In this document: positions 5,770-9,595 of the stretch, piece by piece
Position numbering within the stretch: position 1 is the stretch's first letter
How the letters are laid out: each line of letters starts with the position of its first letter
From: Phycisphaerae bacterium
GTDB taxonomy: Bacteria > Planctomycetota > Phycisphaerae > Phycisphaerales > Phycisphaeraceae
NCBI GenBank assembly: GCA_030432595.1
Contig: JAUIGU010000036.1
Coordinates: 1-39,501 of the forward strand
Reading direction: 5' to 3'
Length of the DNA: 39,501 nucleotides
Notes under the pieces: generated by a model
The model's database searches: none
Seen by the model: the letters and a program-made list of their open reading frames with translations, nothing else
What the model was told of the DNA's origin: nothing
Position numbers and translations under genes: made by a program

Positions 5770-6723
5770 TTACTTGAGGTCCCAGTGGTTGTCGTAGCCC
5801 GGGCTGCCGCCGCCGCGCCCGCCGCTACTGGACTGCGAGCGTTCCCAGTCGGTGAGTTCGTCTTCCTGATACGGGTCGTTGTACTTGTTGATCCGCATGG
5901 TGTTGACGTGGCCGTCGACGTACCCGACGTTGAGGCTGGACCCGCCGACGGTGTCGCCGGCCTGGGTGGCGTCCATGGAGTTGAAGGACTGCTGGTGCCG
6001 GGCGTCGGCGAACCCGCGCTGGATGAACGGGTCGTCGTACTCAGGGTAGAGGTAGGGCACGCCGGTGTAGGTCTCGCCGTTGGTGGCGACGAGGAGGGCG
6101 AAGTCCATCGAGTCGGCGAAGGTGATGGTGGTGCTCGGCGATTTAACCTGGCCCGCTCGGGGGAGCGTCGAGTCGGGCGGCGGGGCACCGTAGGGCTTGG
6201 AGACGGAGTCGTTGCTCGCGGACGACGAGCCCAGGAAGGTGTGGTTGTAGCCGTAGTCGGACCGCGCCCAGAGGTCGCTGCGTTCGGCGTCGCCGCCGCC
6301 GCGGCCGGAGGTGATGTCGTCCGGGGCTTCGAGGATGGCGTTGTCGTCCTCGAACGAAGGGCAGTTGAAGATCTGCACCGTGCCCAGGTAGTTGTCGTAG
6401 AAGAAGTTGGAGGTCCAGTAGGTGCGGGTGTTGCCGCCGGCATCGACCATGCCGAAGGCGGTGGGGTCGGACGGGCCCCAGCCCTGGACGAACGGCACGA
6501 ACTCCTGGTTGTTGTCCGCGACGAAGGCGGCCAGGGCGATGTTGAGTTGGCGGAGGTTGCTGGCGTCGGCGGCCGTGCGACCGGCCTCGCGGGCGGCGCC
6601 CAGGGCCGGCAAGAGGATGCCGATCAGCAGGGCGATGATCGAGATGACCACGAGCAGTTCGATGAGGGTGAACGCGGCGTGGCGGGCCGCGCGAGGGGCG
6701 CGGGAGGCGGGGACGGTGTTCAT
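5770..6723 (-). CDS. Type II secretion/pilin-like protein with DGHV motif (copy 1)
   Basis: 317 residues from the ATG at 6723, which has GGAG at good spacing; an ATG four codons upstream is the alternative. The N-terminus is a prepilin class III signal: a basic stretch, then [20 protein letters not shown], with Glu at position 5 after the predicted cleavage point. The rest resembles the large planctomycete DUF1559/H-X9-DG group, ending with [12 protein letters not shown]. Here the His that normally precedes DG is not obvious. The tail is Ser/Gly-rich. Expected location is the envelope, as a pseudopilin or surface fibre subunit. Function unknown. Confidence 0.85.
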
Positions 6724-6898
6724 TCGGGGCTCCAAATCGACAGGACGCGGGCCGCAGGGTCGCCCGCACGGAACAATTCTATAAAAAACCCGGGCCGAGA
6801 CAACACCTTAATGCATCCCGGACGCATCAGGGCGGCGGAAACGCGGTCGGCGGGGGGTGGAGGGTCCGTTGCCGGGAGGTTTTGTGGGGTTTTGACTC

Positions 6899-6926
6899 TT
6901 GACCCCGGCGGCCGGACGCCGATAAT
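6899..6926 (+). promoter_or_regulatory. Sigma70-type promoter for the structured leader / Cys-rich ORF
   Basis: TTGACC at 6899-6904, a 16-bp spacer and GATAAT at 6921-6926, reading right. A second TTGACT lies 7 bp upstream. This is among the best -35/-10 pairs in the window. Transcription would start near 6933 and could run to the terminator at 7346-7377. Confidence 0.6.
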
Positions 6927-6932
6927 TCACAT

Positions 6933-7189
6933 GTCGGCTGAGGGCCGGGTCGGCGGCGGGCAGCCCCCGTCGCGGGTCGGGTCTCCGAGTCGACCGAGCG
7001 GGAATGGCGAGACGGCATGTGTTTGTCTTCTCGTCCCCGCGCGATGGAGCCCCGCGAGACGTTGCGGGGCCGGAAACCCCCGGCGGCGGACGCCGGCGAC
7101 GCGTCGTGGACCGTGAGAGGTCCGGCCACGACCGCGAGACCGGAGGCCGTGACGGCTGGGAACACCCTTCCCGAAAGGAGCGTGATCCA
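6933..7189 (+). ncRNA. Predicted structured 5' leader (possible ncRNA or riboregulator)
   Basis: About 257 nt between the predicted start site and the Cys-rich ORF, with no long ORF of its own. By eye it folds into successive hairpins: GCCCCGC/GCGGGGC at 7049-7070, CCGGCG/CGCCGG at 7080-7096, a two-part stem GTCGTGG...CCACGAC enclosing GGACC/GGTCC at 7103-7132, and GGGAA/TTCCC at 7158-7172, directly before the AAAGGAG ribosome binding site. High GC makes some pairing expected by chance. I do not recognise a known riboswitch, RNase P, tmRNA, SRP or 6S signature. Confidence 0.4.
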
Positions 7190-7291
7190 GTGATTGAACT
7201 CTGTACCCCTCGTCCCGGTGGCAAGTGCTGCTGCGGTGATAGCTGCGACGGAAACTGCTGCTGCGGACGAAAGAGGATCGGGCTGCGCTGA
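7190..7291 (+). CDS. 33-residue cysteine-rich small protein
   Basis: GTG start preceded nine bases upstream by AAAGGAG, the best Shine-Dalgarno in the window. The product holds 8 cysteines in 33 residues, arranged almost symmetrically: KCCCGDSCDGNCCCGRK. There is no signal peptide and no membrane helix. After the stop come an 8-bp hairpin (7301-7322) and a strong terminator, so the unit stands alone. Possible roles are a metal-binding (metallothionein-like) peptide, a modified-peptide precursor or a regulatory peptide. It is not an obvious attenuator leader, because no gene follows on this strand for 2.5 kb. I do not recognise a family. Confidence 0.5.
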   Translation: MIELCTPRPGGKCCCGDSCDGNCCCGRKRIGLR

Positions 7292-7345
7292 ACGAGGCAG
7301 CTCGACGGAGACTGCCGTCGAGTGCAGCCCGAGCAAAGACCCTAC

Positions 7346-7377
7346 GGCTCGTCCCGGAAACGGGGCGAGTCTTTTTT
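7346..7377 (+). terminator. Strong intrinsic terminator ending the Cys-rich transcript
   Basis: The stem CTCGTCCCG / CGGGGCGAG has one G-T pair, a GAAA tetraloop at 7357-7360 and a run of six T immediately after. It is preceded by a second perfect hairpin, CTCGACGG/CCGTCGAG, at 7301-7322. Confidence 0.9.
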
Positions 7378-7408
7378 GCGCGGTGGAACGGGTTTAACGA
7401 ACGGGTCT

Positions 7409-7560
7409 GGACGGGTCGCTTAGAGCATTTTGCAACCCTTCTGTCTCTTAGCTGCGCCGCGGCGCGTCGCAGGTGTCACCGATAAGACACGAGAAAACAG
7501 CGACGCGATGTGTCGCAGCTATAAGCATCAATCTCGCAATGCGCTCTAAGCGACCCGTCC
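7409..7560. mobile_element. MITE-like foldback, 152 bp
   Basis: The terminal inverted repeats are 25 bp (7409-7433 and 7536-7560). They share GGACGGGTCGCTTAGAGC exactly and differ by three or four bases in the inner seven (ATTTTGC against GCATTGC). Pairing resumes further in, between CTTAGCTGCG...CGCGTCGCAG and its partner around 7500-7525, so the element folds almost end to end. It encodes nothing. It fills most of the gap between the terminator and the fliN-like stop codon. I see no clear target-site duplication. Confidence 0.7.
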
Positions 7561-7585
7561 GGGGGGCGTGTTGGGCGGGAAGGGT

Positions 7586-7852
7586 TTATTTCCCCAGCGC
7601 TTTCACGCGGTCGGTGACGGAGCTGACTTCGTCGATGCGGATGCCGAAGTTCTCGCCGACCTTCACGGCGTGCCCGGTGCCGATCGCTTTGTTGTTGACG
7701 TGGACGGTGAGCTCGTCGTCGGCCGCTTTGGGAAGCTCGATGATCGCACCGGCGGACCAATTCATGACCTCCGTGAGACGGACCCGACGCCGGCCGATCT
7801 CGACGATCACCGGCACGTCCAGGGCGAGGATGGTCTTGAAGTCGGCGGGCAT
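7586..7852 (-). CDS. fliN: FliN-type flagellar motor switch protein (single SpoA domain)
   Basis: 88 residues, almost entirely one SpoA/FliMN-C domain: LDVPVIVEIGRRRVRLTEVM, then AGAIIELPKAADDELTVHV, NNKAIGTGHAVKVGENFGIR. FliN forms the C-ring of the flagellar motor with FliM and FliG and helps bind the export apparatus. The N-terminal extension usual in enterobacterial FliN is absent. No other flagellar gene is visible nearby. The gene lies 72 bp after trpE on the same strand. A SpoA protein of a type III secretion system is the alternative, but none of its genes is here. Confidence 0.85.
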   Translation of the reverse strand: MPADFKTILALDVPVIVEIGRRRVRLTEVMNWSAGAIIELPKAADDELTVHVNNKAIGTGHAVKVGENFGIRIDEVSSVTDRVKALGK

Positions 7853-7924: not shown

Positions 7925-9595
7925 CTAAACCGCAAACAACTGCTCCGCGAGCGCGACCGCCTTGGCCATCGCGGCGGCCTTGTTCACCGTCTCCTGGTGC
8001 TCGGCGTCCGGGTCGGAGTCGGCGACGATGCCGGCACCGGCCTGGATGTCGACCAGCCACGTGTGGGGTTCGGGGTGCGGGGTACGGGGTTCGGGCTGTG
8101 CATCACCCGCCGCGGCATCGGGTTTGCAGCCTTGTTTTTCCTGAACCCCGGCCCCCGAACCCTGCACCCCGGCCGAAGGCCGAATCACCATCGTCCGCAG
8201 CCCGATGCACATGTCCAGGTTGCCCGACAGGTCGGCGTAGCCCACCGCGCCGCCGTACGGGCCTCGCCGGCTGGGCTCGAGTTCGTCGATGATCTGCATC
8301 GCACGGACCTTGGGCGCGCCGCTGACCGTGCCCACCGGCAGCGATACTCGGAGCGCCTCCCACGCGTCCACGTCGTCGCGCAGCGTGCCGCGGACCTCGC
8401 TGCTCAGATGCATCACGTGGCTGTAGCGCTCGACGACGAACTGCTCGGCGATGTGCACCGTGCCGGGCCGGGCGACGCGCCCGATGTCGTTGCGGTGCAG
8501 GTCCACGAGCATCGCGTGCTCGGCGTTGTCCTTGGGGTCGGCGCGGAGCTCTTCCTCTAGCGCCCGGTCTTCTTCTTCGGTCGCGCCGCGCTTGCGCGTG
8601 CCGGCCAGCGGGCGCGACGCGGCGACGCCGTCCTGCACCTTCACCAAAATCTCTGGGCTCGAACCCACCAGCATCGCGCCGTCGATCTGCAGGTAGAACA
8701 TGTACGGCGAGGGGTTCACCGCCCGCAGCGCCCGGTACACGTCGAACGGGTCGGCCAGCGTCGGCACGGTGAACCGCTGGGCGGGCACGATCTGGAACGC
8801 GTCGCCCGCGCCGATGTACTCCTTGCAGATGCGCACCGCGTCCTGGTAGCCGCCTTCGCCCATGTTGGACGTCGGTAGCGTCGGCGGCGGGGCCGCGAGG
8901 TCCAGGTGCGTCGGCGGCGTGTGGATCGGCTCGACCTCGCCGCCGAGCAGGCGCTCTTCGAGCGCGTCGAGCTGCGCGACGCCAGCGCCGTAGGCTTCTT
9001 TGGCAGAGGCGAAACTTCCGGGGGCGATGTGCGTGATGACCAGGACCGTCTTGCTCACGTGGTCGAACGCGACGGTGTCGCGGTAGAACTGCATGTGCAG
9101 GTCGGGCAGCTTGCGGTCGTCCGGCGGGGGCGAGGGCAGCGCTTCGCCTTCGAGGTAGCGCACGGTGTCGTAGCCCGCGACGCCGACCCACCCGCCGGTG
9201 AATTCGGGCAGCCCGACGACGCCCGCCTCGGGCATCGGTCCCAGCGACACGTCGCCGCGCAGGCGGCGCATCTCTGCGAGCGGGTCGTCACACGAATACG
9301 CCTCGGTTGTGCCGGCCGTGTGGTCGCGCAGCTCCACGTCATGCCCGCGCGCGATGACCTCCAACTCGGGGCGCGAGCCGAGGTAGCTGTACCGCCCGAC
9401 GCGGTCCCCGCCCACCACGGACTCGAGCAGGAAGCTCGGCGACATCCGCTCGTCCCCGCGCACCAGCCGGCGGTACGCGAGCACTGGCGTGAGCGCATCG
9501 CCCAGCAGCCGACGCGCCATCGGCAGCCACACGCCGGCCTTGGCCTGGGCGGCGTGCTGCTCGAAGGCCGGGAAGTCGGGGAGGCACAAGGTCAT
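7925..9595 (-). CDS. trpE: Anthranilate synthase component I, with an in-frame insertion
   Basis: 556 residues. Uses chorismate with glutamine or ammonia to form anthranilate, the first step of tryptophan synthesis. The N-terminal TrpE domain is followed by the chorismate-binding domain: GDAFQIVPAQRF, SPYMFYLQIDG, RPLAGTRKRGATEEED, LVDLHRNDIGRVARPGTV, LPVGTVSGAPKVRAMQIIDE and VDIQAGAGIVADSDP. Between RTMVIRP and the last block, where other TrpE proteins have only a few residues, about 40 extra residues (473-512) are encoded by a low-complexity inverted repeat pair. The aminobenzoate synthase PabB is a close relative, but the length and N-terminal domain favour TrpE. trpG/trpD are not adjacent. 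Confidence 0.92.
   Translation of the reverse strand: MTLCLPDFPAFEQHAAQAKAGVWLPMARRLLGDALTPVLAYRRLVRGDERMSPSFLLESVVGGDRVGRYSYLGSRPELEVIARGHDVELRDHTAGTTEAYSCDDPLAEMRRLRGDVSLGPMPEAGVVGLPEFTGGWVGVAGYDTVRYLEGEALPSPPPDDRKLPDLHMQFYRDTVAFDHVSKTVLVITHIAPGSFASAKEAYGAGVAQLDALEERLLGGEVEPIHTPPTHLDLAAPPPTLPTSNMGEGGYQDAVRICKEYIGAGDAFQIVPAQRFTVPTLADPFDVYRALRAVNPSPYMFYLQIDGAMLVGSSPEILVKVQDGVAASRPLAGTRKRGATEEEDRALEEELRADPKDNAEHAMLVDLHRNDIGRVARPGTVHIAEQFVVERYSHVMHLSSEVRGTLRDDVDAWEALRVSLPVGTVSGAPKVRAMQIIDELEPSRRGPYGGAVGYADLSGNLDMCIGLRTMVIRPSAGVQGSGAGVQEKQGCKPDAAAGDAQPEPRTPHPEPHTWLVDIQAGAGIVADSDPDAEHQETVNKAAAMAKAVALAEQLFAV
8061..8172. repeat. Short-period foldback inside trpE, element C (GGGGTTC type)
   Basis: The left arm (8061-8095) repeats TGGGGTTCGGGGTGCGGGGT. 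The right arm (8140-8172) is the complementary CCCCGAACCCTGCACCCC type. The length keeps the trpE frame open and encodes a Pro/Gly/Gln-rich segment. Architecture is the same as the spacer elements D (9604-9754) and E (17354-17680). Confidence 0.75.

Follow-up and report, generated by a model that had tools for sequence, protein, structure and literature searches.

The region 6899–7377 of contig JAUIGU010000036.1, from a Phycisphaerae bacterium, raises the question of whether a very small, cysteine-rich reading frame behind a long, structured leader is a peptide gene or one part of a structured RNA. The window, by which is meant the whole stretch of 39,501 nucleotides that was analysed, had initially been annotated from its letters alone; this first-pass annotation described a complete transcription unit for a peptide of 33 residues with eight cysteines, plausibly regulated by metal or thiol status. 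By sequence comparison, the region is a member of a structured RNA of Planctomycetota that is found in most sampled Phycisphaerales genomes and is scattered in the phylum. Its cysteine-rich peptide is most readily explained as an extension that a particular lineage has added to an older RNA gene.

A transcription unit in the window

All the parts of a transcription unit were present (Table 1): a promoter, a long structured leader, a Shine-Dalgarno (SD) sequence, an open reading frame (ORF) beginning with GTG, a hairpin and a terminator. Two promoter-like sites were observed in a 2.5 kb region where 0.1 was expected (both strands), and TTGAC...ATAAT-like boxes were also recognized by eye upstream of L002, L003, L010 and L011. 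The leader measured approximately 257 nt, as had been claimed, when counted from about 7 nt past the -10 box up to the GTG, and the transcript folded better than 100 shuffled sequences (z = -5.57). The SD core AAAGGAG was found at 7174–7180, though one base interrupts the extended SD block. Three terminator-like sites occurred in the 2.5 kb region, compared with 1.5 expected in shuffles, and therefore the terminator call is weak when taken alone. The hairpin that had been placed after the ORF does exist, but its position required correction, because its 5' strand (P4) consists of the last three codons and so starts within the ORF. The nearest gene downstream of the unit encodes a FliMN_C protein on the minus strand (7586–7852) and is convergent. 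With these corrections the earlier description was borne out: the unit is coherent and stands alone, would readily escape gene callers, and has a long structured leader under selection.

Two features were observed beyond the terminator. Directly after it lies a palindromic, MITE-like repeat (7405–7570), which has 16 further, diverged counterparts in the same genome (77–84% identity) and, in addition, some matches that are weak or reversed. In trpE (7925–9595, minus strand), a low-complexity stretch, QGSGAGVQEKQGCKPDAAAGDAQPEPRTPHPEPHTW, near the C-terminus of TrpE (window 8060–8180) resembles an in-frame repeat insertion; the Pfam chorismate-binding domain was matched in two stretches.

Table 1. 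Coordinates of the features of the RNA element in the window
Feature	Position	Strand	Basis or remark
Promoter TTGACC-16-GATAAT	6899..6926	+	10 of 12 consensus positions matched
5' leader segment upstream of HP1, rich in hairpins	6933..7048	+	
HP1 hairpin, 9 bp, GACG tetraloop 7058-7061	7049..7070	+	Window minimum free energy (MFE) fold; covariation
P2 5' strand, CCCGGC	7079..7084	+	Covariation; absent from single-sequence MFE
Variable P3 domain; pairing of 7086-7089 to 7147-7150 conserved	7086..7150	+	Covariation
GACG linker and P2 3' strand GCUGGG (7155-7160)	7151..7160	+	Alignments
Extended Shine-Dalgarno block, AAAGGAG-C-GTGATCCA	7174..7189	+	Own 16S tail located
Mini-ORF, 33 codons, 8 Cys, GTG start, TGA stop	7190..7291	+	Extension of an ORF usually of 10-14 codons
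P4 5' strand, formed by the three final codons (GGG CTG CGC)	7280..7288	+	Covariation; MFE
P5 hairpin, GACG tetraloop 7304-7307	7296..7316	+	Covariation (tip pairs); MFE
P4 3' strand, GTGCAGCCC	7322..7330	+	Covariation; MFE
Intrinsic terminator	7346..7377	+	Stem 7346-7371 of 11 pairs, then T6

Homologs and distribution

A DNA search over 51 genomes of the host family produced matches in eight, own genome counted, such that a real homolog was identified in seven other family genomes; a second place in one of these (L005 in G001) was judged to be spurious. The eight loci were used to build a covariance model (R1), which matched 34 of the 51 family genomes at E <= 1, and 32 at E < 3e-8. A second model (R2), built from 30 loci, matched 125 of 201 genomes of the order and 22 of 246 genomes in a sample of the phylum. 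A third (R3) drew on 43 loci, of which the family supplied four, and matched 138 of the 201 order genomes at E <= 0.01, with 135 of these below 1e-5, and nominally 63 of the 246 phylum genomes. The last figure is an upper bound, because the E-values are rough and one locus considered to be a false positive, L063, reaches 5e-8 without a convincing SD or mini-ORF; furthermore, R3 includes some members from outside the order that it then finds again. Relatedness among genomes was left in all of these counts.

Copy number was normally one, second matches elsewhere being weak or at contig ends, and G037 was the sole genome searched with two strong copies (G037:C85 and G037:C53). Two loci, L044 and L102, reach contig ends. 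In 12 well-assembled genomes without a match, the laxer R2 search gave only E > 0.4, so the RNA is probably dispensable or diverged there. A pattern scan of a named genome collection provided a set of 80 loci among the matches listed (at least 118 stretches). R2 recognized 19 of these 80 at E < 2e-8, comprising 18 named as Phycisphaerae, Phycisphaerales, Phycisphaeraceae or Phycisphaera, and one uncultured bacterium. The remaining 61 loci come from many phyla, four of them being named as other Planctomycetota (L189, L219, L227 and L236); they served as a negative control and matched R2 no better than E 0.018.

When 4227 Rfam models were compared with the window (6500–7700) and with the loci of 20 relatives, none scored above its gathering threshold at the element, and the only match above gathering was a tRNA in L056, outside the element. 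The RNA is therefore unlisted in Rfam; the 2017 list of 224 motifs lies outside this comparison, as does the Rhodopirellula-1 motif, which the part of Weinberg 2010 consulted places in Proteobacteria and Planctomycetes, without an Rfam accession. Among the open-access titles and abstract openings listed, none described this RNA.

Conserved secondary structure

Covariation was evaluated separately for HP1–P3 and for P4/P5. For HP1, P2 and P3, an alignment of 30 sequences had 96.5% of cells paired, and both partners had changed in 13 of 18 pairs, with a covariation score of 0.518 against 0.209 when shuffled; with 43 sequences, these values were 96.9%, 17 of 18, and 0.535 against 0.174, both alignments having been fitted to the model structure, which favours that structure. 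When partners were slid by 1–3 columns the score fell to 0.13 or less in both alignments. P4 and P5 form a conserved hairpin around the stop codon. The tip of P5 was assessed together with P4 on 59 sequences aligned with MAFFT: 92.2% of cells were paired, both partners had changed in 11 of 12 pairs, and the score was 0.398 (shuffled 0.239; 0.17 or less when partners were slid). This result is favoured by the choice of rows by eye after a first alignment, since 21 of 80 parsed elements were excluded for 3' ends that were different, cut or unplaceable. In each of the three tests, none of 500 shuffles reached the observed score.

In the MFE fold of the window, HP1, P4 and P5 formed exactly and P2 did not; forcing P2 cost 6.5 kcal/mol. 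That fold instead contained a helix between GCUGG and the start codon (7155–7160 with 7186–7191). A switch between P2 and this helix was considered and found to be unsupported, as CTGG and CCAG co-occurred in 28 of 78 relatives where approximately 30 were expected. The hairpin loops follow a GNCG pattern, with GACG capping both HP1 and P5 in the window; loops read by eye elsewhere include GUCG in HP1 of L003, L053 and L055, GCCG in HP1 of L051 and L052, GUCG in P5 of L026, and GGCG in P5 of L059 and L066.

Two further elements were noted at the ends of the RNA. An extra hairpin upstream of HP1, flanked by GACGA...GGCGAU, was present in 19 of 80 relatives (L083–L110), and the window contains just a similar sequence, GCGCGATG. 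A possible 16S antisense stretch, CCCTACGG, precedes the terminator in several close relatives, and was rejected as a feature of the RNA, being missing from most other order members shown.

Extended complementarity to 16S rRNA

The 16S tail, GGCTGGATCACCTCCTTT, occurred once in the genome of the window. The contiguous complement between the SD and this tail had a median length of 16 nt and a maximum of 19 across the relatives; 69 of the 78 elements had more than 10 nt. As a control, 215 long ORFs from the neighbourhood were called mechanically and represented by their best in-frame start within the first 40 codons, which gave a median of 6 nt and no value above 10 nt; when only the first start was considered (195 ORFs), the median was 5 and the maximum 10. 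Part of this excess is selected, because the homolog models R1–R3 contain the SD columns. The sequence GGAGGTGATC was found inside 23 of 34 elements and only once elsewhere in 541 kb, both strands counted. In the window, the contiguous match to the 16S tail was 10 nt, compared with the median of 16; a single base interrupts it, as it does in the nearest relatives. In Staphylococcus aureus, extended SD pairing is reported to govern initiation in a 2026 paper (PMC13009471).

An SD of this length would also be expected if the RNA were a ribosome decoy, or a sensor of 16S 3' ends, in which the SD holds 30S subunits or checks for mature 16S ends and the tiny ORF cycles the ribosome off. While the length of the complement and the near-restriction of GGAGGTGATC to these elements favour such a role, a strong SD also fits plain high initiation, and the match is interrupted in the window and its close relatives. 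A decoy needs no conserved ORF frame, no hairpin straddling the stop codon and no pairing between loop and ORF, and this explanation is considered rather doubtful.

The reading frame and its peptide

Mini-ORFs were parsed automatically at 80 of 86 loci, and 78 were retained after removing L063 and the cut L102. Their length was 10–14 codons in 65 of 78 cases, with all three stop codons in use. The P4 block lay in frame with the start codon in 52 of the 55 relatives where a simple pattern could place it (25 of 80 being unplaced), while by a second pattern start and P4 were 18, 21, 24, 27 or 33 nt apart in 51 of the 56 elements placed (14 of 70 unplaced). Among 28 loci that were read separately, 26 had ORFs of 8–16 codons and the two others had 17 and 18; all but L290 came from outside the order, and three repeat one place. 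The first-pass annotation had pointed out that frame-breaking changes in the ORF, with the RNA itself conserved, would indicate an sRNA; the frame was in fact kept.

Conservation of the amino acids was another matter. The window encodes MIELCTPRPGGKCCCGDSCDGNCCCGRKRIGLR (33 aa, 8 Cys). A peptide core, ...DC[TI][KR]GL[RH], recurred within the order, and peptides outside the order, such as MMIVRGSTRRWVR, MIDLRKRWLEI and MTLNRRWLSL, were unrelated in sequence. Four or more cysteines were found in only five of 78 ORFs (the window, G001, G010, G022 and G043), and cysteine was absent altogether from 9 of 69 distinct ORFs of 9–19 codons (10 of 70 if the doubtful L063 is counted). Comparison thus points to an ORF of which the frame and length are kept and the amino acids are not. 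The original reading amounts to a metal- or thiol-binding peptide under leader control, to be judged by conservation of its Cys pattern in relatives; because that pattern was not conserved, the idea fails for the RNA family. The eight cysteines of the window, and the four other ORFs with at least four, still speak for it locally, and a metal/thiol peptide may at most have been added recently, in a small number of lineages. The window peptide had no match in Pfam, NCBIfam, PADLOC (searched with two relatives) or PDB sequences, for which a query of 33 residues has little power. As an account of this locus, the leader-controlled cysteine peptide appears improbable.

Alternatively, the locus could be a micropeptide gene throughout, with a peptide of 10–14 residues as product and the RNA as its regulatory leader. 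The maintenance of frame and length, and the core that recurs within the order, would be explained in this way. However, the core overlaps segments that are involved in pairing (the partner of the P3 loop, and P4), and other lineages encode entirely different peptides. In ORFs of 16 aa or less, the last Cys codon was UGU in 50 cases and UGC in 10, whereas neighbouring ORFs contained 676 UGC and 294 UGU; this excess of UGU suggests a constraint at the RNA level. A micropeptide product is accordingly judged to be quite unlikely. An SD-like purine block was also observed near the stop codon (mean match 5.36 against 4.21 shuffled), which is inseparable as a signal because it overlaps P4.

Pairing between the P3 loop and the reading frame

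Relatives whose P3 is short have an apical P3 loop complementary to early codons of the ORF, approximately codons 4–7. The mean helix score for 72 relatives was 11.97, compared with 10.81 ± 0.28 when ORFs were swapped between species. Among the 37 relatives with a short P3, the mean was 13.12 against 11.59 ± 0.32, and the maximum of 500 swaps was 12.62; a helix of at least 5 bp with a score of at least 11 was found in 28 of the 37, against 19.5 ± 2.6 after swapping (maximum 27). The pairing partners vary, and include GUACAG/CUGUAC, AAUCACG/CGUGGUU, AGUCAC/GUGACU and UCACAU/AUGUGA. In the window, the best helix between P3 and the ORF was no better than shuffles (p = 0.98), and therefore a pairing switch is not claimed there.

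Genomic context

Contexts of 8 kb were placed for 34 of 40 loci, six being unplaceable. The nearest downstream ORF was on the same strand in 18 of the 34 and convergent in 16, and no protein cluster was common to more than five; these contexts revealed no conserved same-strand gene downstream that the RNA could regulate. Since neighbours differ and the downstream ORF is often convergent, the RNA was interpreted as its own gene. The first-pass annotation had likewise argued against a simple attenuator, and both the convergent FliMN_C gene and the variation of neighbours among relatives agree with it.

A leader acting in cis on a downstream gene could be proposed for dprA, for example, since a dprA cluster (one member checked and identified as Pfam DNA_processg_A) follows the RNA at 12 of the 30 family loci. 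Even so, a terminator intervenes, the neighbour differs in the window and in other families, and almost half of the contexts are convergent. Regulation of dprA was rejected, the association being one of local synteny only, and a cis-acting leader or attenuator is very improbable. In 17 of the 30 family loci, the upstream gene was without a Pfam match (one member checked); this upstream family has approximately 160 aa (PWEDRW...LIKRRHK), for example at L027. By eye, a start codon was seen only 6–8 bases after a TACACT/TATACT box at L018, L027, L029, L030, L038 and L039, belonging to dprA where the cluster includes the locus, which suggests that dprA mRNA is leaderless in the host family.

Proposed function

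Comparison among relatives showed the fold, the extended SD, the frame and length of the ORF, independence from neighbouring genes and, where P3 is short, pairing between its loop and the ORF. The reading preferred here is a ribosome-engaging regulatory RNA that would act in trans, with its output through RNA and not through the peptide, the cysteine peptide of the window being an extension in one lineage; its probability is put at about one half. The long SD would capture 30S subunits, presumably at a high rate of ribosome loading. A captured subunit would have to break the pairing between P3 loop and ORF, and a ribosome that reached the stop codon would have to open P4, in which case the fold would report both initiation and termination on the RNA. 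The ribosome exit tunnel holds about 30 residues. Because the peptide is usually too short to emerge from the tunnel and its sequence is unconserved, the output was assigned to the RNA, with partner RNAs or proteins perhaps recognising the GNCG-capped hairpins. In the lineage of the window, 33 codons with eight cysteines could add a dependence on charged tRNA-Cys, or metal or thiol binding.

More tentatively, the element might represent an ancient class of Planctomycetota RNA that probes the translation machinery. Ribosomes would be caught by an SD as long as the 16S tail, on a minigene of almost constant length and unconstrained sequence, and their passage would flip pseudoknot and stop-hairpin states that a partner reads in trans, so coupling the capacity for initiation and termination to gene regulation.

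Such a structured RNA, normally in one copy, present in the majority of the genomes sampled from an order, scattered through the phylum, unmatched in Rfam and readily overlooked by gene callers, qualifies as a strong candidate core regulator. The combination of an extreme SD, a minigene of conserved length, a stop codon in a hairpin and GNCG-capped stems would allow a direct test of whether bacteria read ribosome activity by means of a structured RNA. The window itself offers a case of how a Cys-rich peptide can arise within an older RNA gene.

Comparison with known systems

Regulatory RNAs that contain a small ORF are familiar from dual-function sRNAs such as SgrS/SgrT and RNAIII. To our knowledge, no dual-function sRNA combines a phylum-wide distribution and conserved ORF length with an unconserved peptide. 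In tmRNA, the stop codon sits within a helix. Like the present RNA, tmRNA (RF00023) has a short ORF in a structured RNA, but the element described here lacks a tRNA-like domain and possesses its own SD and start codon. The structured RNA around an ORF of some ten codons, with its stop in a hairpin, could be taken for a divergent tmRNA. Membership was excluded, given that the same genome has a canonical tmRNA elsewhere (G000:C13, 137 bits), that ARAGORN found none in the window, that no Rfam tmRNA model matched at the element, and that the SD and start codon are its own; the probability of a divergent tmRNA is negligible.

The rnTrpL/peTrpL RNA derives from the trp attenuator. In Sinorhizobium it is described as a leader-peptide RNA that acts in trans (PMC7298713). 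Like the present RNA in the reading preferred here, it is a small RNA that contains a short ORF and works independently of a gene downstream. Unlike rnTrpL, the present RNA is not followed by an operon, nor do its codons share a conserved theme. The Downstream-peptide motif (RF01704) of cyanobacteria is, according to PMC2864571, a structured RNA upstream of short ORFs of unknown function (17–100 aa), in which indels are multiples of three and conservation was suggested for the 5' UTR only; the present RNA had no Rfam match to RF01704.

A further parallel was CC2171 (RF01867), a small RNA of Caulobacter, to which weak matches recurred in the window (16.9 bits) and at 8 of the 20 relatives' loci (best 34.9 bits), all below its gathering score, which is 75. 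Judged by eye, the SD block and the final hairpin carry most of the match in the six alignments shown. The Caulobacter passages of PMC4117421 that were consulted contained nothing on CC2171. Translation of the CC2171 consensus gives an ORF of 22 codons, VSHCHQPRPPAWAWPPPKALSA*, preceded by a long and perfect SD, and this small RNA may itself be coding. Because the model begins at the SD, it has no counterpart of HP1, P2 or P3, unlike the present RNA. Nonetheless, CC2171 starts with GAAAGGAGGUGAUCCAGUGUCU, which is an equally long SD followed by GUG, and its model ends in a strong hairpin, both as in the present RNA; by the present data this likeness is not homology but an interesting parallel.
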